The notes under the pieces were generated by a model. That model made no database searches. It worked only from the letters and a program-made list of their open reading frames with translations, and was not told the DNA's origin. This document shows positions 2,221-11,530 of a DNA stretch of 64,000 bases, piece after piece (position 1 is the first letter of the stretch; every line of letters begins with the position of its first letter). A program made the translations under genes and the position numbers. The stretch is from Saccharopolyspora gloriosae (GTDB taxonomy: Bacteria; Actinomycetota; Actinomycetes; Mycobacteriales; Pseudonocardiaceae), in contig NZ_CP059557.1 in assembly GCF_022828475.1 (NCBI RefSeq), forward strand, positions 4,201,470-4,265,469. The letters are read 5' to 3'.

Positions 2221-2856
2221 TCAGCCCGAGCTCGGGTTTCCTCCCGTCAGATACCGCGTCAGCATCGCCACGAGTTCGTTCTCGAAGTGGGGGATGTCGA
2301 TCGGGTCCGATGCGGCGATGAGTTGGTGCACGACGAGTTCGACGGTGGAGACGACGAGGCGGGCCGCGGTGTGCGGGTCGCCGACGCGGACGTCCGCGTG
2401 TCGTTCGATCAGGTCGCGGACGTAGCCGACGTGGACCTTCTCCAGATGCGCGACCTTGTCCAGCAACGCCTGGGAGCGCGGGGCCTCCTCGATCATGATC
2501 CGCAGCAGTTTCGGGTCGTCGAGGTGGCTTTCGATGGCGGCTCGGACGAAGTGGCGAACCGTTTCCTCGACCGAGTCCGGCCACGCGTCGGGCAGCCGGG
2601 CGGCGGTGTTGCGCATGCCGTCGTCGAGGTGGCGGGTCAGCAGCTCGACCAGGATCGCGTCCTTGTTCGGGAAGTACTGGTACAGCGAACCGATGGAGAT
2701 CCGCGCCCGCTCGGCGATGCGGTTCGTGGTGCCGGCGGCGTAGCCGTGCTCGGTGAAAACGTGAGCAGCCGCGCTGAGGATGCGCTGGCGAGTGAGTTCC
2801 GCCCGGACTTGGCGCGGCTGTTTGCGCGGTCGCAGCCGTCGCTCACCCGAGTTCAT
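2221..2856 (-). CDS. TetR/AcrR family transcriptional regulator
   Basis: The protein has 211 residues with an N-terminal TetR helix-turn-helix (RQRILSAAAHVFTEHGYAAGTTNRIAERA, then SIGSLYQYFPNKDAIL, about residues 24-68) and a helical ligand-binding C-terminal part. The start is the ATG preceded by GAGGAGGT; an in-frame start 19 codons upstream has no ribosome site. It is divergent from the FMN-binding protein gene at 2997 with about 140 bases between, so it probably represses that gene and itself. The ligand is unknown. Confidence 0.9.
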   Translation of the reverse strand: MNSGERRLRPRKQPRQVRAELTRQRILSAAAHVFTEHGYAAGTTNRIAERARISIGSLYQYFPNKDAILVELLTRHLDDGMRNTAARLPDAWPDSVEETVRHFVRAAIESHLDDPKLLRIMIEEAPRSQALLDKVAHLEKVHVGYVRDLIERHADVRVGDPHTAARLVVSTVELVVHQLIAASDPIDIPHFENELVAMLTRYLTGGNPSSG

Positions 2857-2996
2857 GGCACCTCCTCGAACGCGCCGGAAAGCGAGTAGCGCGTGAAGCG
2901 AACAATTACTCATAATGATGCCACAACCTGCGGTGATGCATCACCCGTGAGCATTCGCAGGCCCGTTTCGAAGCAACGCGTTCAAGCAAGGAGCCA

Positions 2997-3632
2997 ATGA
3001 TGACGCACGCCCGCACCCGTCCCCGGCGGGTGTCGATGGAGGAGCTTCGCGCCCGGCTCGGGCAGCCCGATGACATGGTCACGGCCCTCAAGTCCGGGGT
3101 GAGCATCGATCAGCATATGCACCGCTTCATCGCCCACTCCCCCTACCTGTCGATGGCCACCTCCGACGCGGCGGGCCGCGCGGACTGCTCTCCTCGCGGC
3201 GATTTCCCGGGTTTCGTGAAGGTCCTCGACGAACGCACCCTCGCGATCCCGGACCGGCCGGGCAACAAGATCGCCGACGCGTTCCGCAACCTCGATGAGA
3301 ACGACGGCATCGGGTTGCTGTTCCTCATCCCGGGAGTCTCGGAAGTGCTGCGGGTCAACGGAAGCGCTTACGCCACCGACGATCCCGACGTGCTGACCCG
3401 CATGCGGGTCAACGGCAAGGACGCGCAGTTCGCGCTGATCGTCGAAGTGGAGCAGGCTTTCTTCCACTGTGGACGGGCGCTGTTGCGGTCCCGGTTGTGG
3501 GACCCGGACAGCCAGGCCCTCGCGGCGGAAATTCCGTCGGTGGGCGAGATCGCCGCCGCCCAGTCGGGCCTCGACATCGACCCGGCTTGGCTCGAACGCG
3601 AACTGCAGGCCGGATATCGCAAGCTGTACTGA
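2997..3632 (+). CDS. Pyridoxamine 5'-phosphate oxidase-like FMN-binding protein (MSMEG_1061 type)
   Basis: The product has 211 residues with a split-barrel flavin-binding fold. Recognisable blocks are SPRGD followed by GFVKVLDERTLAIPDRPGN, then a D-x3-NL-x2-N segment, as in actinobacterial PPOX-family proteins of this subgroup. Such proteins bind FMN, F420 or haem and act as oxidoreductases, often on unknown substrates. An AAGGAG site precedes tandem ATGs at 2997 and 3000. It is divergent from a TetR gene that likely controls it. Family placement is firm; the reaction is not known. Confidence 0.85.
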   Translation: MMTHARTRPRRVSMEELRARLGQPDDMVTALKSGVSIDQHMHRFIAHSPYLSMATSDAAGRADCSPRGDFPGFVKVLDERTLAIPDRPGNKIADAFRNLDENDGIGLLFLIPGVSEVLRVNGSAYATDDPDVLTRMRVNGKDAQFALIVEVEQAFFHCGRALLRSRLWDPDSQALAAEIPSVGEIAAAQSGLDIDPAWLERELQAGYRKLY

Positions 3633-3741
3633 CGACGGGCGCGGCGCGGAAAACCGTTTCCCCTTGGGCGAGCTCGGCTGTTACGGTCCGATGCGAGCGG
3701 CAAGAGAGGTTCCGCAGGGCCTCTGATCAGGGAGTTTCGAC

Positions 3742-3771
3742 GTGGTGAGTGACGACGACATCTCCGGGTGA
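3742..3771 (+). promoter_or_regulatory. Candidate 9-codon leader peptide upstream of the ABC-F gene
   Basis: GTG 3742 opens a 9-codon frame (MVSDDDISG, TGA 3769-3771) preceded by AGGGAG at 3729-3734 with 7-base spacing. Its GAC-rich codons (3752-3761) are perfectly complementary to 3822-3831, so a ribosome in the leader would disrupt the downstream fold. That is the layout of translation-controlled attenuators upstream of antibiotic-resistance ABC-F genes. The role is inferred. Confidence 0.5.
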
Positions 3772-3831
3772 ATCCGGAGTGTGAGCACCTCCGCAACCGC
3801 CTTCAGGCGGTGCGGGAGGTCATGTCGTCGT
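3752..3831 (+). promoter_or_regulatory. Three-stem RNA structure, candidate attenuator
   Basis: Outer stem: ACGACGACAT (3752-3761) pairs with ATGTCGTCGT (3822-3831), 10 of 10. It encloses hairpin I, CTCCGG/CCGGAG (3762-3767/3774-3779), and hairpin II, ACCTCC...ACCGCC with GGCGGT...GGAGGT (3787-3820), which has a TTCA loop and a 3x3 internal loop. The structure lies between the leader peptide and the ABC-F start at 3898. No T-tract follows, so premature termination, if any, is not of the simple intrinsic kind. Confidence 0.55.
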
Positions 3832-3897
3832 ACCCGTTTCCCCGTCCGCTCGCCGGGCCGCAGCAGCGCGCCCGCCTGGCGTTGGAAGGCACTCAGC

Positions 3898-5526
3898 ATG
3901 CCCGACGCACTGATCGTTTGTTCCGACCTCACCTTCTCCTGGCCGGATGACACGCCCGTGTTCGACGAGCTGTCGTTCACCGTGGGCGGCGGCCGCACCG
4001 GGCTCGTCGCGCCCAACGGCGCGGGCAAGAGCACGCTGCTCAAGCTCATCGCAGGGCAGTACCGGCCGCAAGCCGGTTCCGTCACCGTCCACGGGACCGT
4101 CGGCTACCTGCCGCAGAGCCTGCCGCTGGCCGGGGAACTCACCGTCGCCGACGTGCTGGAGATCGCCCCGACCCTGCGTGCGCTGCACGCCATCGAAGCC
4201 GGTGACGTCGGCGAACACCACTTCGCCACGGTCGGCACCGACTGGGACATCGAGGAACGTGCCCGCGCCGAACTGGATCGGCTCGGGCTCGGCGAGGTGC
4301 CGTTGGACCGGCCGTTGCGCACGTTCAGCGGTGGCCAGGTCGTGTCGCTCGGGCTCGCCGCGCAACTGCTGAAGCAACCCGACGTGCTGCTGCTCGACGA
4401 ACCCACCAACAACCTCGACCGCGACGCGCGCCACCGGCTGCACTCGGTGCTGGAGGAATGGCACGGGTGTCTGCTGCTCGTCGGCCACGACCGTGAACTG
4501 CTCGACCGGATGGACCGCATCGCCGAACTCGACCGGAGCGAAATGCGGTGGTACGGCGGCGGTTTCACCGATTACGAAGGCGCGCTGCGCGCCGAGCAGG
4601 AAGTCGCCGAGCGCCACGTCCGCAACGCCGAACAAGAGGTCAAGCGGGAGAAGCGGGAACGCCAGCAGGCACGGGAACGCGCCGATCGACGTGCGAGCAA
4701 CGCCGCCCGCAACGTGAAATCCGCCGGGCTGCCGAAGATCCTCGCCGGAGCACGCAAGCGCCGCGCGCAGGAATCGGCGGGCCGCGCCGACGGGACGCAT
4801 GCGCAGCGGGTCGATGAAGCCAAGGCCAAGCTCGACGAAGCGGGACGAGCGCTACGGGACGAGGACAGGATCTCCCTGTCGCTGCCGGGAACCCGGGTGC
4901 CCGCCGGGCGCACGGTGTTCCTCGGCGAAGGTCTGCGCGCCGGCTATGCGGGGACGCCGGTGTTCGCCGGCGTGGACGTGGCGATTCGCGGACCGGAGCG
5001 GATCGCGCTGACCGGGGCCAACGGTTCCGGGAAGTCCACGCTGCTGCGCCTGATCACCGGCGAGCTCGCCCCGGAGCACGGTGAGATCACCCGGACCGAC
5101 GGGCGGATCGCCTACCTCTCCCAACGACTCGACCTGCTCGACGCCGAACGCGGCGTCGCCGATAATCTGCGCGCGTTCGCGCCGGACATGCCGCAGTCGC
5201 AGTTCATGCACGTGCTCGCGCGGTTCCTGTTCAAGGGCGACCGCATGCAGCTGCCGGTCGACGTGCTCTCCGGCGGTGAGCGGCTGCGCGCGACGCTGGC
5301 CTGCGTGCTGTGCGCGGAACCCGCACCGCAGCTGCTGCTGCTGGACGAACCGACCAACAACCTCGACCTGGTCAGCGTCGGTCAGCTGGAGAGCGCGCTC
5401 AACGCCTACGAAGGCGCCCTCGTGGTCGTCAGCCACGACGAGCGTTTCCTCGCCGAGATCAACGTGACCCGTCGTCTCCACCTGTCCACCGGCGCACTGC
5501 GCGAAGCGGACGACAGCCCGCGTTGA
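3898..5526 (+). CDS. ABC-F family ATPase (ribosome-protection type)
   Basis: The product has 542 residues, two ABC ATPase domains and no membrane segments, which defines ABC-F. Domain 1 has NGAGKST, the signature FSGGQ and LLLLDEPTNNLD; domain 2 has NGSGKST, LSGGE and LLLLDEPTNNLD. A charged alpha-helical linker rich in Arg, Glu and Lys joins them (about residues 235-330). Members bind the ribosomal E site and either displace antibiotics or act in translation. ATG 3898 is chosen for GGAAGG at 3884-3889 and because the first beta strand begins directly after it; a frame-open GTG at 3781 lies inside the RNA structure. The upstream attenuator-like leader favours an antibiotic-resistance role, perhaps macrolide/lincosamide/pleuromutilin type, but the drug is not predictable here. 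Confidence 0.93.
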   Translation: MPDALIVCSDLTFSWPDDTPVFDELSFTVGGGRTGLVAPNGAGKSTLLKLIAGQYRPQAGSVTVHGTVGYLPQSLPLAGELTVADVLEIAPTLRALHAIEAGDVGEHHFATVGTDWDIEERARAELDRLGLGEVPLDRPLRTFSGGQVVSLGLAAQLLKQPDVLLLDEPTNNLDRDARHRLHSVLEEWHGCLLLVGHDRELLDRMDRIAELDRSEMRWYGGGFTDYEGALRAEQEVAERHVRNAEQEVKREKRERQQARERADRRASNAARNVKSAGLPKILAGARKRRAQESAGRADGTHAQRVDEAKAKLDEAGRALRDEDRISLSLPGTRVPAGRTVFLGEGLRAGYAGTPVFAGVDVAIRGPERIALTGANGSGKSTLLRLITGELAPEHGEITRTDGRIAYLSQRLDLLDAERGVADNLRAFAPDMPQSQFMHVLARFLFKGDRMQLPVDVLSGGERLRATLACVLCAEPAPQLLLLDEPTNNLDLVSVGQLESALNAYEGALVVVSHDERFLAEINVTRRLHLSTGALREADDSPR

Positions 5527-5828: not shown

Positions 5829-6530
5829 GTGGGGGAAAGCATTTCCGGTGACGGGTCCACACGGAATGCGGTCGTCCTCATCGCCCACGGCATTCCCACC
5901 TACCGCTATGGACTCGCGCTGGGACTGGAACAATCGGAATTCGCAGTGCAGGAATCCGCACCGGCGGACGCGCCGAACACCGGCGAGTGGGACGCGTGCC
6001 TGGTCGAGGTGTCGCGGTCCGACAGCTCCACGCTCTCCGCACTGCGGGACGCCCGCCCGGCAGGGGTGCTGATCGCCCTGCTCGACGAGCCGGACGCCGA
6101 TGATTACCGTGCGGCGCTGCGCATCGGAGCCGACGGGCTGGTCGCCCAGGACGCGGCGCTCGACGAGATCATCACGGTGCTGCGGCTGGCGCTGCGCGGC
6201 ACGGTGCTGCTGCCACGCGGAATCGCCCGGTCACTGGCCACCGGCGTGACCCGTCCGCCGACCGCGCTGAACCTCACCGGCGTGGACCGGGAACTGCTCA
6301 CTCGGCTGGCGATGGGCAGCCCGGTCGCCGACATCGCCAAGTCCGCCGGTTATTCGGAACGGCAGATGTATCGACTCGTCCGGGAGATCTACCACCGGCT
6401 GGGCTCCCGCAATCGCAGCGAGGCCATCGCGACCGCCACCAGGTGGGGACTCATCTCGGAAAGCCAGAGCAGGGCCGCCGCGGAAACCGACAACGCGGCA
6501 CGGCCACCGCCGCGCGCCCGCTGCCACTGA
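5829..6530 (+). CDS. Orphan LuxR/NarL-type response regulator, lasso-locus regulator
   Basis: The product has 233 residues. Residues about 10-120 resemble a CheY-like receiver, but where the phospho-acceptor Asp normally sits (in a pattern like LLDVRMP) the sequence reads WDACLVEVSRSD, so the acceptor is degenerate. Residues about 145-205 are a LuxR-type helix-turn-helix (LTGVDRELLTRLAMGSPVADIAKSAG, then the YHRLGSRNRSEAI recognition region). No kinase gene is adjacent. The GTG start follows GGAGGA. It lies 125 bases before the ABC exporter and probably controls the lasso genes independently of phosphorylation; that assignment rests on position. Confidence 0.85.
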   Translation: MGESISGDGSTRNAVVLIAHGIPTYRYGLALGLEQSEFAVQESAPADAPNTGEWDACLVEVSRSDSSTLSALRDARPAGVLIALLDEPDADDYRAALRIGADGLVAQDAALDEIITVLRLALRGTVLLPRGIARSLATGVTRPPTALNLTGVDRELLTRLAMGSPVADIAKSAGYSERQMYRLVREIYHRLGSRNRSEAIATATRWGLISESQSRAAAETDNAARPPPRARCH

Positions 6531-6655
6531 CCAGAACCGTCTTCCCGATCGAACCCCGCCACGTTCCCGAAACGCGCTACCGGGTACCGCCGACCCGGCC
6601 ACCACGGGTCGCGAAGAAGCCCGGAACGGCGGTCGGCAAAGTCCGAAGGAGTCAC

Positions 6656-8416
6656 GTGCTACAAGTTTTCCGGCCTACCAGGCAAAGCGACGACGAACAG
6701 GAGGATTCCCCCGGAATCGTTGAGGAAGCACCGGCAGAACCGACCAGGCGAGTCGGTGTCCGCGATCTGATCCAGATCGCCCGCGGGCACCAGCGCGCGA
6801 TCGCGATCGCACTGGTGCTCTCGTTGCTGGGCGCCGCGCTGGGGCTGGTGCAGCCGCTGCTGGCCGGGCGTGCCATCGACGCGTTCGCCCGGCAGCAGCC
6901 CTACCTGCCGTTGATCTGGGTGCTCGCGGCGGTGTTCATCAGCGAGGCCGTGGTCTCGGCACTGGGCCACTACGCGCTGGAGCGGTCCGGCGAAGGCATC
7001 GTGCTGGGGCTGCGGCAGCGGGTGATCGGCACGCTGCTGCGGCTGCCGATGCGCCGCTACGAGCAGCGGCGGCTCGGCGACCTGCTCGCCCGCACGAGCA
7101 GCGACACGACCCTGCTGCGCGACACCTTGGCCTACGACCTCTCCGAAGTCGTCGTCGGCGTGTTCGTCGTCATCGGCGGCACCGCCATGATGATCTGGCT
7201 GGACGCCGCGATGTTCCTCATCGTGCTGGCGATCATCGGCGCGATCGGGGCGCTGACCATGTTGCTGCTGGCGGGAATCCGCCGAAACGTCGAAGAAGCC
7301 CAAGACAGCCTCGGCGGCATGACCGCGGAACTGGAACGGGCGCTGTCGGCGATCCGCACGGTGCGGGTGATGCGGGCCGAAGATCGCGAGCAGGAACGGA
7401 TCGGGCAGCACGCCCGGCAGGTGTACGAGCAGAACCTCGCCGCGGCCAAACGGGATTCCGTGGTGAACCCGGCGATGACGCTGGCCATGCACGCCTCGCT
7501 GATCGCGGTGCTCGTGGTCGGCGGCATCCGGGTCGTCAGCGGCGCCTCGACGCTGGCCGACCTGGTGGGTTTCCTGCTCTACGTCACCTACATCGCGACG
7601 CCGATGGCCAACATCTTCGACGTGATGGCCACCTTGCAACGCGGACTTGCTGCATTGCAACGCGTCGACGACGTGACGCGGATGCCGGTGGAGGAGGCCG
7701 CCGCGCCGGTCACCACCACCCCGCGCGAGCCGGCCGCCCCCGAGGTCCCCGCGGTGGAACTGCGCGACGTCTGGTTCGGCTACGACCCGGACACCCCGGT
7801 GCTGCGCGGGGTCTCGTTCGCCGTGCCGCGCAACGACCACGTCGCGCTCGTCGGGGCGTCCGGAGCGGGCAAGTCGACGATTTTCGCGCTGCTGGCCCGG
7901 TTCTACGACCAGGATCGCGGGCGCATCCTGCTCGACGGGGTCGACACGCGCGACGAGATGAGCCGTGACGAGTGCCGCTCGCACCTGAGCCTCGTGGAGC
8001 AGCACTGCCCGATCATGCACGGCACGCTGGGCGAGAACATCGCCTACGCCAAGCCGGACGCCGACCGCGAGGAGATCCGGCGCGTGGTGGAACTCGCGGC
8101 GCTGGACACCCTGGTGCAGCGGCTGCCGCACGGGCTGGACACGCCCGTCGGCGACCACGGCGACCTGCTCTCCGGGGGCGAGCGGCAACGAGTCGCGCTG
8201 GCCCGCGCCCTGCTGCCACGTCCCCGGCTGCTGCTGCTGGACGAGCCGACCTCGCAGCTCGACAGCGCGAACGAGGCCGCGCTCACCGAGACCATCGCGA
8301 AGGTCTCCTCCGAATGCACGCTGCTGGTGATCGCACACCGCCCGTCCACCGTGCGCGCCGCGGACTCGGTCGTGACGCTGGAGTCGGGCCGGGTCACGGG
8401 GGCCTCCGTGAACTGA
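6656..8416 (+). CDS. ABC transporter, fused membrane and ATPase domains (putative lasso peptide exporter/immunity)
   Basis: The product is 586 residues, a half-transporter of MsbA/LarD layout: a six-helix membrane domain (about residues 40-330) and an ABC ATPase (about 350-586) with Walker A GASGAGKST (near 400), signature LSGGERQRVALARALL and Walker B LLLLDEPTSQLD. It would work as a homodimeric exporter. GTG 6656 follows AAGGAG at 6646-6651; a frame-open ATG at 6443 lies inside the regulator gene. No peptidase C39 domain is present, which fits a system with its own leader peptidase. Its place before the lasso precursor suggests export and self-protection, as with McjD. A perfect hairpin terminator at 8444-8485 ends this transcript. 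Confidence 0.88.
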   Translation: MLQVFRPTRQSDDEQEDSPGIVEEAPAEPTRRVGVRDLIQIARGHQRAIAIALVLSLLGAALGLVQPLLAGRAIDAFARQQPYLPLIWVLAAVFISEAVVSALGHYALERSGEGIVLGLRQRVIGTLLRLPMRRYEQRRLGDLLARTSSDTTLLRDTLAYDLSEVVVGVFVVIGGTAMMIWLDAAMFLIVLAIIGAIGALTMLLLAGIRRNVEEAQDSLGGMTAELERALSAIRTVRVMRAEDREQERIGQHARQVYEQNLAAAKRDSVVNPAMTLAMHASLIAVLVVGGIRVVSGASTLADLVGFLLYVTYIATPMANIFDVMATLQRGLAALQRVDDVTRMPVEEAAAPVTTTPREPAAPEVPAVELRDVWFGYDPDTPVLRGVSFAVPRNDHVALVGASGAGKSTIFALLARFYDQDRGRILLDGVDTRDEMSRDECRSHLSLVEQHCPIMHGTLGENIAYAKPDADREEIRRVVELAALDTLVQRLPHGLDTPVGDHGDLLSGGERQRVALARALLPRPRLLLLDEPTSQLDSANEAALTETIAKVSSECTLLVIAHRPSTVRAADSVVTLESGRVTGASVN

Positions 8417-8443
8417 TCCCCCGCCGCACGTCCAGAGCCTGAA

Positions 8444-8485
8444 CGAAAAGTGCCTCGCCGGAACATTTCGGCGAGGCACTTTTCG
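8444..8485 (+). terminator. Perfect hairpin terminator after the ABC exporter
   Basis: A perfect 17-bp stem, CGAAAAGTGCCTCGCCG at 8444-8460 and its reverse complement at 8469-8485, encloses an 8-base loop; the stem ends in AAAA/TTTT. It starts 27 bases after the exporter's stop and should separate the regulator/exporter transcript from the precursor. Confidence 0.85.
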
Positions 8486-8504
8486 CGCGTCGCACGATCG
8501 ACGG

Positions 8505-8549
8505 CGTCGGAATTCCGACGTAGAACAGTGCCGAAGAAACTGTTCTACG
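8505..8549. promoter_or_regulatory. Two adjacent perfect inverted repeats upstream of the lasso precursor
   Basis: The first is the 16-bp palindrome CGTCGGAATTCCGACG at 8505-8520. The second has 11-bp arms, CGTAGAACAGT (8519-8529) and ACTGTTCTACG (8539-8549), separated by 9 bases. Both lie 250-290 bases before the precursor ATG in a 379-base gap. They may be operators for the LuxR protein or structures in a long 5' leader. Function not shown. Confidence 0.5.
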
Positions 8550-8795
8550 CGTTCCGTTACACGCGACCGCACATTTGACGACAATTGCCATGAACATGGC
8601 TCCGAACCGCACATACATGCCACATCAGCACGTCGAACGCGCCATCATGAAAGGCACTGTCCGGCGAAGGATCGTCAGTCACCGACCTCGCTCGACATGG
8701 ATTTCCGGACGCCCGCCCGGATAGCATTACAAGCACGCTGATCAGCGTTGATGAATACGCAGAAGACAAGGCAACACCGATTCCAAGGAGTGGCC

Positions 8796-8912
8796 ATGTA
8801 TTCCAAGCCCAGCATCCTCAAGGTCGGCGGCTTCCAGAAGCTGACCCAGCACAGCCGGCCGGCGAAGAAGGACAAGGCCGGGCGCCGTCGCCCTCGCCAC
8901 ATCCTGCTCTGA
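8796..8912 (+). CDS. Lasso peptide precursor (38 aa), predicted His1-Asp8 ring
   Basis: This short gene was found by reading upstream of the cyclase. The ATG follows AAGGAG at 8785-8790. The 18-residue leader carries the actinobacterial lasso motif Y-x2-P-x-[LI]-x3-G-x5-T: Tyr2, Pro5, Ile7, Gly11, Thr17. Thr17 is the expected -2 residue, so cleavage after Gln18 gives the core HSRPAKKDKAGRRRPRHILL (20 residues). Asp26 becomes core position 8 and is the only acidic residue in the core, so an 8-residue macrolactam His1-Asp8 is predicted, with a 12-residue tail. There are no Cys, so no disulfide (class II). The core holds eight Lys/Arg against one Asp and ends in a hydrophobic ILL; both a His N-terminus and such charge are unusual. 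Cleavage one residue either way would give a 9- or 7-residue ring, also chemically possible. Confidence 0.88.
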   Translation: MYSKPSILKVGGFQKLTQHSRPAKKDKAGRRRPRHILL

Positions 8913-8936
8913 GCCACCGAGCACCGCGGAGAAGAG

Positions 8937-8965
8937 CGCGAGCCACGGTTCTGCCGTGGCTCGCG
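8937..8965 (+). promoter_or_regulatory. Stem-loop between lasso precursor and cyclase genes
   Basis: A perfect 12-bp stem, CGCGAGCCACGG (8937-8948) and CCGTGGCTCGCG (8954-8965), encloses a 5-base loop. There is no T-tract. In this position such a structure is expected to cause partial termination or to protect the 3' end of the precursor mRNA, giving much precursor and little enzyme. It also covers the GTG at 8956, an in-frame alternative cyclase start. Confidence 0.7.
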
Positions 8966-9003
8966 TCGAGCGCTCGCCCGTTCCCTGCTGGAGGCCTCCT
9001 TCC

Positions 9004-10839
9004 ATGAACCGTTTCAACCGTGCCGGCGAGTGGCTCGTCGTCCTGCCGGACCACCCCGCGTCCGAACCGCTCGCCGACTCGCTGGGCGGCGCGCTCCGCG
9101 TCGACCACCCGTCCGGACGGCCCTGGCTCGTCGGCAACTGGGGCACCGCGGACCTGCGGGTCGGGGCGGCCGGTCACACGAAGGTCGCCGCACTCGGCTT
9201 CTGCGCGGCGGACACCGAACAACTCATCCGCATCGCGGACCGCACCCGCACGGTCGCCGACCTCGACGCGACCTCGTTCGAACGCGCGGGCTGCTACCAC
9301 CTGCTGGCCTCGGTCCGGGGTGTGGTGCGTGCCCAAGGCACCCTGTCCGGCCTGCGCAGACTGGTCCACACCCGGATCGGCGGCATCACCGTCGCCGCCA
9401 CCCGAGCCGACGTGCTCGGCGCGATCAGCGGGGCCGAGGTGGACCCGCGGCGACTGCTGCTGCGGCTGTTGCTCTCCGAAGTCGCGCTGCACACGGTGAA
9501 CACCCCGCTGTGGCAAGGACTGCACGCCGTCGACGAAGACGGCTACCTCGTGCTCGACGAGCAGGGGCGGGCACGGGTGCACCGGCGGTGGAGCCCGCCG
9601 GTCGCCGACGTTCCGCTGCGGGAAGCCGCGGCACGGTTGCGCGTGGCGCTCGACGGCGCGGTGCGGGCGCGGGTGGACTCCGGGATGGCGGTGAGCAGCG
9701 ACCTCTCCGGTGGCCTCGACTCCACCACGTTGTGCTTCCTCGCCGCGCGGAACGGGCGTCCGCTGACCACGCTCACGACCTTGGCCACCGACGCCGGTGA
9801 CGACGATCCGTACTGGGCGGACCTCGCCGCCGAATCCCTCCCCGGCGTGCACCGGCTGCAATTCGCGTTCGCCGAGCTGCCCACCCCGTACGACGACCTG
9901 CTGCGCGCCGGGCCTGCCGGGGAGGAACCGTTCCCCGGCATCGAGGACCGCACGATGTACCGGGCGCTCGCCGCCTACCTCGGCGCCGCCGGGACCGCGG
10001 TGCACCTCACCGGCGACGGCGGGGACGAGGTACTGCCCGGCGGATCGTCCGGAGTCTTCGACTTCATGCTCAGCCGGCCGTGGACCGCGTTCTCCCAGCT
10101 GCGCGGATATCGCGCGCTGGAACATTGGAGCTGGGCCGACATCGGGCGCATGGCGTGGGAACAACGCCGCACCTATCCCGCTTGGCTGGCCGACCGCGCG
10201 CGCCGCGTCATCGCCTCACCGCTGGACGACGAAGGCGCCTCCGCGCTGCTGCAACTGCCACCGTGGGCGACCCAGGACGCGGTGGACGCGGTGCGGGACC
10301 TGCTCGTCGCCGAGGCCGACACCGCCGGGCGCCACGACGCCGGCTGGACCGAGCACCACACGGTGTGGGGCATCCGGCTGTGCGCGAATCTGGTTCGCGG
10401 CACCGTGCCGGTGTACGCCGCGGAAGGAATCCGGCTCAGCTCACCGTATTTGGACGACGCGGTCATCGAGGCGTGCATCGCGGCCCGCCCCTACGAGCGC
10501 CGCTCCCCCTGGCAGTACAAGCCGATCCTGACCGAGGCGTTGCGCGGGATCGTGCCGGAGGCCTCGTTGAAGCGCGTCACCAAAGCGGAGGGCTCCAACT
10601 TGGAGCACACCGGGATCCGCCGGAACGTCGACGCGCTCACCGCGCTGTGCGAGGACTCCCGGCTGGCCGAACTGGGCCTCATCGACGCGACCAGGTTGCG
10701 CGCGGTGTGCACCGGGTTCCAGCTGCGCCTGTTCACCCCGTACGCGATGTCCACGACGTTCAGCTGCGAGCGCTGGCTGCGCGATCTCGACGACGAGACC
10801 GCGCGCCCGGTGCTCGCCGAACAGAACGAGGTGTCCTGA
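9004..10839 (+). CDS. Lasso peptide cyclase (asparagine synthetase-like)
   Basis: The product has 611 residues. It is homologous to class B asparagine synthetases: an N-terminal glutaminase-like domain without a catalytic Cys2, and a synthetase domain with the ATP-binding PP-loop SGGLDS at residues 235-240. In lasso pathways (LasC/McjC) this enzyme adenylates the ring Asp/Glu side chain and joins it to the core N-terminus. Here it would link Asp8 to the alpha-amine of His1. ATG 9004 is chosen for GGAGG at 8990-8994; the upstream GTG 8956 lies inside a stem-loop. The stop overlaps the next start (TGATG). Confidence 0.93.
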   Translation: MNRFNRAGEWLVVLPDHPASEPLADSLGGALRVDHPSGRPWLVGNWGTADLRVGAAGHTKVAALGFCAADTEQLIRIADRTRTVADLDATSFERAGCYHLLASVRGVVRAQGTLSGLRRLVHTRIGGITVAATRADVLGAISGAEVDPRRLLLRLLLSEVALHTVNTPLWQGLHAVDEDGYLVLDEQGRARVHRRWSPPVADVPLREAAARLRVALDGAVRARVDSGMAVSSDLSGGLDSTTLCFLAARNGRPLTTLTTLATDAGDDDPYWADLAAESLPGVHRLQFAFAELPTPYDDLLRAGPAGEEPFPGIEDRTMYRALAAYLGAAGTAVHLTGDGGDEVLPGGSSGVFDFMLSRPWTAFSQLRGYRALEHWSWADIGRMAWEQRRTYPAWLADRARRVIASPLDDEGASALLQLPPWATQDAVDAVRDLLVAEADTAGRHDAGWTEHHTVWGIRLCANLVRGTVPVYAAEGIRLSSPYLDDAVIEACIAARPYERRSPWQYKPILTEALRGIVPEASLKRVTKAEGSNLEHTGIRRNVDALTALCEDSRLAELGLIDATRLRAVCTGFQLRLFTPYAMSTTFSCERWLRDLDDETARPVLAEQNEVS

Positions 10840-11108
10840 TGACCGTGCGCCTGCACCGAGACGTCTCCCTGATCCGCACCGACGACGGCGGGGTGCTGCT
10901 CGATCAGCGCTCCGGGGAGTACTGGCAGCTCAACCACACCGCCGCGACCGCGCTGCGGCTGCTGCTCGACGGAACGGGTGAGCAGGAGGTCGCGACGGCG
11001 CTCGTCGCCGAGTGCCAACCGGGCGAAGTGGAGCCGGACCAGGCGTTGCGGGACGTGCGCGAGCTCGCCGACGAGTTGACGGCCGCGAAACTGGCGGTGC
11101 GCTCGTGA
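10839..11108 (+). CDS. Lasso RRE protein (PqqD-like, B1)
   Basis: The product has 89 residues with a PqqD/RRE winged-helix fold: a beta-rich N-terminus with GVLLDQRSGEYWQLNHTAATAL, then helices ending in a D-V-R-E-L segment. As in other actinobacterial lasso loci, it should bind the leader through its YxxP motif (Tyr2/Pro5 of the precursor) and deliver it to the peptidase and cyclase. Start and stop both overlap neighbours by 1-4 bases, so the three enzymes are translationally coupled. Confidence 0.9.
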   Translation: MTVRLHRDVSLIRTDDGGVLLDQRSGEYWQLNHTAATALRLLLDGTGEQEVATALVAECQPGEVEPDQALRDVRELADELTAAKLAVRS

Positions 11109-11530
11109 GCACGCAGGAGACGTTGTTCCGCCACGACGGCCGCGCACCGCTGCGGATCCGCCTCGCCGCGCGCCTCGCCGTCGCGATCGCGCTGGGATTG
11201 TCGCGGCTGCCACCACGGCGCATCCGGGCGGTGCTGGTGGCGGTGCGGGGACGGGCGCGGCCCGCCGCGCACGATCAGGTGCTGGCCGCCCGCCGAGCCG
11301 TGGTGGCGAGCAGCGTGACCTGTGCGGGCAAGGGGTGCCTGCCGCGTTCGATCGCGACGGCGCTGCTGGTCCGGATGCGCGGGCAGTGGCCGAGCTGGCG
11401 GGTGGGTGCGCGCACGGCGCCGTTCGGCGCGCACGCCTGGGTGGAGGCGGAGGGACGCCCGGTGGGCGAGGACGCGAACATCACGTCGTTCCGCCCGCTG
11501 CTCTCCGTCGACCCCCGCGACCCCGCATGA
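11105..11530 (+). CDS. Lasso leader peptidase (transglutaminase-like, B2)
   Basis: The product has 141 residues. It belongs to the lasso peptide B2 family, a Cys protease of transglutaminase fold. Candidate triad: Cys78 in GCLPRS, His110 in GAHAWVE and Asp123 in VGEDA. It removes the leader after Gln18 of the precursor. GTG 11105 overlaps the preceding stop. With the RRE protein it forms the split B protein typical of actinobacteria. It is the last gene of the operon and is followed by a palindromic doublet. Confidence 0.93.
   Translation: MSTQETLFRHDGRAPLRIRLAARLAVAIALGLSRLPPRRIRAVLVAVRGRARPAAHDQVLAARRAVVASSVTCAGKGCLPRSIATALLVRMRGQWPSWRVGARTAPFGAHAWVEAEGRPVGEDANITSFRPLLSVDPRDPA

Follow-up and report, generated by a model that had tools for sequence, protein, structure and literature searches.

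What does the short gene just upstream of a lasso cyclase operon in Saccharopolyspora gloriosae encode, and what might a peptide so rich in positive charge do? The window, that is, the whole 64,000-nucleotide stretch of DNA analysed here, has a 38-codon ORF plus stop codon at 8796-8912 (+), exactly where a preliminary description of this DNA had placed a lasso precursor gene (A), and genes for a cyclase (C), an RRE protein (B1) and a leader peptidase (B2) follow it, as that description had said. By analogy with characterised pathways, we put the probability that the product is a class II lasso peptide closed between His1 and Asp8 at roughly 0.85. The best reading of the locus as a whole is a new, uncharacterised, exported family of polycationic lasso peptides: an addition to a known class rather than a novel type of system.

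The precursor gene and its operon

Gene A encodes MYSKPSILKVGGFQKLTQHSRPAKKDKAGRRRPRHILL, in which an 18-residue leader (MYSKPSILKVGGFQKLTQ; 8796-8849, +), supported by its alignment to NF033521 and by its homologues, precedes a core (HSRPAKKDKAGRRRPRHILL; with the stop codon 8850-8912, +) marked out by residues invariant in all eight homologues. An AAGGAG sequence (8785-8790) lies six to eleven bases 5' of the ATG. The leader had been said to fit the class II motif Y-x2-P-x-[LI]-x3-G-x5-T, and does so residue by residue (Y2, P5, I7, G11, T17), with Thr at -2, Gln18 at -1 and His19 as the first residue of the core; the motif recurs in all eight homologues, with I or L at the bracketed position. 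Residues 2-18 align to the lasso leader domain model NF033521 at 16.9 bits (cut-off 19), and the PF19397 score is 13.6 bits (cut-off 22.6); both scores fall below cut-offs that are thresholds of curated models, not a biochemical feature of class II lasso peptides. The residue counts given earlier are also correct: the core has eight Lys/Arg, two His and a single acidic residue, D8, and its net charge is +7 with His uncounted. Class II cores have Asp or Glu at positions 7-9, here D8 in eight of eight, and the cyclase, RRE protein and B2 peptidase of the class are all encoded with the precursor.

The cyclase (9004-10839, +; 611 aa, asparagine-synthase-like) matches PF00733 at 130.2 bits, well over the Pfam cut-off of 21, while no NCBIfam lasso-cyclase model exceeds its own cut-off. 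It is followed by B1 (10839-11108, +), an 89-aa PqqD-like RRE protein (NF033530, 91.8 bits, cut-off 70), and by B2 (11105-11530, +), a 141-aa transglutaminase-like leader peptidase with a GTG start (NF033537, 109.6 bits, cut-off 33), in which two residues, Cys in GCLPRS and His in AHAWVE, are retained at all eight loci.

Left unmentioned in the preliminary description is gene D (6443-8416, +), which encodes an ABC exporter with fused membrane and ATPase domains (PF00664 and PF00005); its true start is probably downstream of 6443, and no peptidase domain was found in it by Pfam scan. Relatives of D at 61-90% identity occur at the seven other loci. In the window and in one other genome of its genus (G120) D lies 5' of A, whereas in all six genomes outside that genus it lies 3' of B2; since a relative adjoins the operon at every other locus, D belongs to the lasso system. 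Genes A, C, B1, B2 and D are present at all eight loci, with flanks that vary between genera. B1 and B2 were found by tblastn at all eight (for B1 of G173 the match covers 51 of 89 residues). No sixth gene is common to the eight among codon-filtered ORFs of at least 90 aa, a filter on length and codon composition that excludes B1, part of the B2 genes and short genes in general.

Three further features lie around gene A. A LuxR/response-regulator-like gene upstream (5829-6530, +), with weak NarL/UhpA-type matches that are all sub-cut-off, may be a local regulator; it is found only in the window's genus and, among the eight loci, is shared with G120 alone. Between D and A is a terminator-like hairpin lacking a T tract (8444-8485, +; -37.7 kcal/mol, z -6.0), which the terminator scan did not pick up; in comparison with G120, three base pairs of the stem have changed in both partners, and the pair next to the closing pair is broken (as judged by eye). 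Between A and C is a possible attenuator hairpin (8936-8966, +; z -1.96, with 11 of 200 shuffles folding equally well), the stem arms of which are identical in G120. The two hairpins may reflect separate transcription of A and a tuning of A over C. A promoter/terminator consensus scan gave no sites. The interval between D and A also has a perfect 11-bp inverted repeat, CGTAGAACAGT-N9-ACTGTTCTACG, at 8519-8549, which is not conserved in G120.

Also upstream, on the same strand, is a gene for a ribosomal-protection-like ABC-F protein (3898-5526; NF000355, over cut-off), considered as a self-resistance gene that would point to the ribosome. Relatives are present in all six genomes of the window's genus, including four that lack the precursor, and the gene is not shared with the neighbourhoods of other genera, so it says little about the target.

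Distribution, conservation and probable loss of the locus

How widespread is this peptide? A homologue was found in eight of 297 genomes of the taxonomic family, the window's own included. Among 390 family genomes, 18 have a match at E <= 0.01: eight over the whole peptide (in five genera), one partial (G321, a relic) and nine short and low-scoring, the last probably chance matches from their length and score. A second weak match in G254 is the precursor of another basic-core operon. Within the window's genus, two of six genomes have the precursor, and among 396 genomes sampled evenly from the phylum no full homologue was found besides the window's own (six matches: this one and five short, weak ones). 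The seven other carriers, which include Amycolatopsis azurea DSM 43854 (L059, G107) and Saccharopolyspora indica KCTC 29208 (L058, G173), resemble the window in having H1, D8 and all five genes, and their precursors are 68-100% identical to it. Within the family, the top eight cyclase matches sit in these same eight genomes, at 61-100% identity, and the next is at 46%. This coincidence of full-length precursors and best cyclases argues that the locus is more than chance. Of 298 genomes from the wider order, 22 have a match to the cyclase alignment at E <= 1e-120, four of them outside the family; no strongly basic precursor was found in the three of those four that were examined. Mobile spread was considered and set aside, with five plasmid records at E <= 1e-60 (at most 36.9% identity) and four loci on viral contigs (up to 29%).

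Conservation within the precursor bears directly on the core boundary. Core residues H1, S2, R3, P4, K7, D8, R12-R13-R14-P15-R16 and L19 are identical in all eight homologues, and position 9 is K or R throughout; in the leader, M-Y-S-K-P, G11 and T17 are retained. The residue at -1 is Q, K or M while the H-S-R-P that follows it is invariant; this variation beside a fixed H1 and D8 supports the proposed start of the core at His1, and none of the eight has a different conserved boundary. The 8-residue ring proposed earlier agrees with the invariance of D8; two of the eight (G047 and G254) have an additional Asp at position 10.

Compared with A. azurea (G107), the window core differs at one residue and by nine synonymous differences in 15.8 sites (core pS 0.57, pN 0.023; leader pN 0.229), and the G047 core likewise differs at one residue. 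A general claim that the core is more constrained than the leader holds against these two genomes, but not over all 28 pairs, where the core has a pN/pS of 0.362 and the leader one of 0.351; core and leader are therefore constrained alike. As judged from these sequences, the peptide is maintained by selection in several Pseudonocardiaceae. The earlier remark on close relatives needs correction: the peptide occurs, conserved, in five genera and is no isolated case, and its homologues are uncharacterised.

Other genomes appear to have lost the operon. In G321 the leader and first core residues are fused to the middle of B2. Two members of the window's genus retain fragments beside the ABC-F gene, as in the window: G101 has B1, B2, two pieces that make up roughly the final quarter of C, and fragments of the regulator (A and D were absent in the 10 kb read), and G137 has pieces from the beginning of D together with 210 of 233 residues of the regulator (A, C, B1 and B2 were absent in the 12 kb read). 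From the position of these two relics, these strains probably descend from an ancestor that had the operon, which was then lost by deletion. The relics at three loci imply that the system is dispensable.

A cyclase clade with basic cores

Are strongly basic cores peculiar to this family? The cyclase collection has 110 rows (30 from the genome search and 80 from a search of related loci), with at least three genomes appearing twice. Precursors were extracted for 95 by the T-2 rule; the script missed some, including those of L020, L023 and L025, and these three and two further G254 copies were entered into the trees by hand. Among the 95, the first core residue is G (43), C (13), L (11), H (8), F (8), A (5), R (2), W (2), V (1), K (1) or Y (1), and all eight His1 rows belong to the window peptide's family.

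On a tree of 109 rows (omitting L058 and L059, which are copies, and the partial L130, with the rows entered by hand), the 18 rows with a net charge of +4 or more require five changes, as against 16.9 for shuffled labels, and 14 of them form a single clade (SH-aLRT 98). With 46 rows chosen from the 109, the support for this clade is 98/95, and it is recovered in 96% of 200 bootstrap trees. It includes the window cyclase, its members are Pseudonocardiaceae and one Geodermatophilus, and its cores are strongly basic in all 14 rows, with net charges from +5 to +8. The other cores in it are GLLGRRRDSRNRLRPQA, GSRGRQRDSRRRQKN (twice), AVRPGYRRDGRYIRARRHHTD, RGGARPPRDSRWTRRRRRGE and APKRKRGHDHRCKNRRPKGGHGY; the last three have Asp at position 9 by the T-2 rule, with a doubtful boundary for RGGARPP.... 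Basic cores thus mark a whole cyclase clade, which offers a simple lead for genome mining.

They are not confined to it: L031, L100 and L103 (+4) and L096 (+6) fall outside, and near a further cyclase outside the clade, L037/L164 (G034; without a label in the trees), lies a lasso-type precursor whose core is RRGRWGRDRRWRRRWW (+8). Charge is therefore no proof of common function by itself. L096 (Saccharothrix obliqua) has, at about 2850-3990, four tandem Arg-rich lasso precursors (e.g., GPRGPRPDFRRRRPRF) before one cyclase, apparently a separate origin of basic cores. No recognisable precursor was found for the four rows (L027-L030) of the sister group of the basic clade, so the trait is not placeable further back. 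Sister-group loci L177-L180 (G109, G157, G126 and G142) have tandem pairs of lasso-type cyclases in four of four genomes, with no B1/B2 match or recognisable precursor in the 13-15 kb read from each. Within the basic clade, contig 33 of G254 has three cyclases in about 55 kb (L046, L047 and L048), each with its own strongly basic precursor.

Adaptation of the enzymes to basic substrates was also considered, and dropped. Most clade cyclases are more acidic (net charge from -14 to +1, against a median of +1 in the other rows), but their six typical acidic positions are no excess over five other clades, which have 0, 2, 6, 11 and 16.

Possible functions and comparison with known lasso peptides

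By analogy with known lasso pathways and enzyme families, B1 would bind the Y-x2-P...T leader, B2 would cut after Gln18, and the cyclase would activate (adenylate) the Asp8 side chain and join it to the alpha-amino group of His1. The product would have an 8-residue ring and a 12-residue Arg-rich tail, with a predicted monoisotopic mass of 2373.42 Da, and D would both export it and protect the producer. Most likely, the peptide would enter cells by virtue of its charge and bind an anionic target inside.

The rarity of His1 noted in the preliminary description is borne out beyond the eight of 95 rows above: the 62 lasso peptides tabulated in the accessible part of PMC12427821, a review of 2025, start with G (39), S (9), C (7), A (3), L (3) or W (1), and none with His, so that acceptance of His by the window cyclase is a prediction. 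This lack of precedent, and a product predicted from sequence alone, would be compatible with another core boundary, or with a linear or a branched-cyclic, unthreaded product of enzymes that only trim; the Arg-rich tail would, moreover, need threading through an 8-residue ring. On the other hand, the canonical enzyme set is complete, H1 and D8 are invariant at all eight loci, and lariocidin, according to the accessible text of PMC11451635, threads a charged tail through a ring of just this size. We consider such a product quite improbable, and continue with the His1-Asp8 lasso.

What would it act on? Our guess, leaning towards yes, is that its role is antibacterial, and the occurrence of a near-identical peptide in related bacteria suggests an unstudied family of natural antibiotics. 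As a target, rRNA or the ribosome is a tentative guess against which we would bet: it is favoured by the likeness in charge to lariocidin, and held back by the missing Gly residues flanking Asp8. Less likely still is the broader idea that the basic-core clade, with its ordinary N-terminal leaders, arose separately as a second line of polycationic lasso antibiotics and converged with lariocidin on entry by charge and an rRNA target, the window family closing its ring on His.

The same lasso peptide might instead, as lassomycin does, hit a Clp-type protease ATPase and not rRNA. Lassomycin contains Arg, in its tail, and its only acidic residue is Asp8 (PMC12427821, accessible part), and its target is given as ClpC1 in the accessible part of PMC13352647. 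Its net charge is +3, however, against +7 for the window core, no sequence likeness is visible beyond Asp8 and basic residues, and among codon-filtered ORFs of at least 90 aa no methyltransferase gene is common to the eight loci. A protease target finds no support beyond the lassomycin precedent, and we think it very unlikely. Another possibility is that the peptide is no antibiotic, but serves as a signal, binds polyanions at the surface or interacts with proteins. Non-specific binding of polyanions is possible for basic peptides; the antibacterial action of this one is a guess, and conservation of the core is silent on its target. The patchy distribution (eight of 390 genomes) and the relics at three loci nevertheless resemble those of antibiotic clusters, and the exporter gene is retained at eight of eight loci, so that a role of this kind seems unlikely, if less so than the Clp-type target. 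An antibacterial lasso peptide is the reading that we carry into the comparisons below.

In the literature searched, the core string HSRPAKK does not occur (the peptide may be present in prediction sets such as LassoPred or LassoESM), no lasso peptide of A. azurea is described (the species appears only in a reference), and nothing on the window peptide is among the matches listed for His N-terminal or for polycationic or arginine-rich lasso peptides. The six precursors in the accessible table of PMC5974421, a match for lasso peptides and Actinoalloteichus, include none of this family.

Among the known systems, the best NCBIfam model for the window cyclase is NF033561, for macrolactam cyclases of the albusnodin/ikarugamycin type; the score of 235.9 bits is under the cut-off of 300, and no acetyltransferase gene is common to the eight loci among codon-filtered ORFs of at least 90 aa. 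Lassomycin shares Asp8 and a tail with Arg, and differs in its Gly1, its charge, its methyl-esterified C-terminus and its putative methyltransferase (PMC9266682, accessible part); no lassomycin locus was found in 24 genomes of one genus.

Lariocidin is closer in charge. The earlier statement that most characterised lasso peptides are not strongly cationic needs the correction that some known ones are, lassomycin at +3 and lariocidin among them: in the PMC12427821 table the median net charge (K+R-D-E) is -1, and the only two of the 62 to reach +5 are lariocidin and lariocidin B, both at +6. The accessible part of PMC13352647 gives lariocidin as +7, which fits a count without the ring Asp and would make the window core +8. 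According to the accessible text of PMC11451635, lariocidin has a Ser1-Asp8 ring of eight residues, binds the small ribosomal subunit as a ribosome inhibitor, and is thought to be taken up by way of the membrane potential; the core of triculamin differs from it at five positions. Like the window peptide, lariocidin is polycationic and lacks Cys, with its 8-residue ring closed on Asp8. Unlike it, lariocidin starts with Ser1 and has Asp8 flanked by Gly on either side, and its cluster includes an acetyltransferase; the Gly next to Asp8 is termed critical and conserved in PMC11451635 (accessible text), and the window family has H1, K7 and K/R9 in eight of eight instead of the Ser1 and flanking Gly of lariocidin and triculamin.

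Weak matches to lariocidin-like cores (E 0.05 to 0.37) were found in five of 276 genomes of the genus of G412, taken for Streptomyces, and one of them, G1032, looks real. At this locus (L161, about 7960-11180) the ORF begins MSKKSKPGDG...; its core follows immediately on Met, and its C-terminal extension is acidic. The neighbouring genes encode a 424-aa Asn-synthase-domain protein, a GNAT protein and an ABC transporter, and another cyclase-B1-B2 set lies about 4 kb away. The layout, known from this one locus, lacks a leader and has the 424-aa protein, whereas in the window an N-terminal leader precedes the core and the cyclase is 611 aa long; a core directly after Met may define the lariocidin group.

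The five-gene cassette of the window is clean and suited to heterologous expression, and with this family one could ask whether His1 is acceptable to a lasso cyclase, whether polycationic lasso peptides have evolved repeatedly, and whether charge alone suffices for cell entry. Lariocidin provides the precedent of a highly charged lasso peptide as a broad-spectrum ribosome inhibitor; the window family has more positive residues than lariocidin, and is nearly unchanged in five genera.
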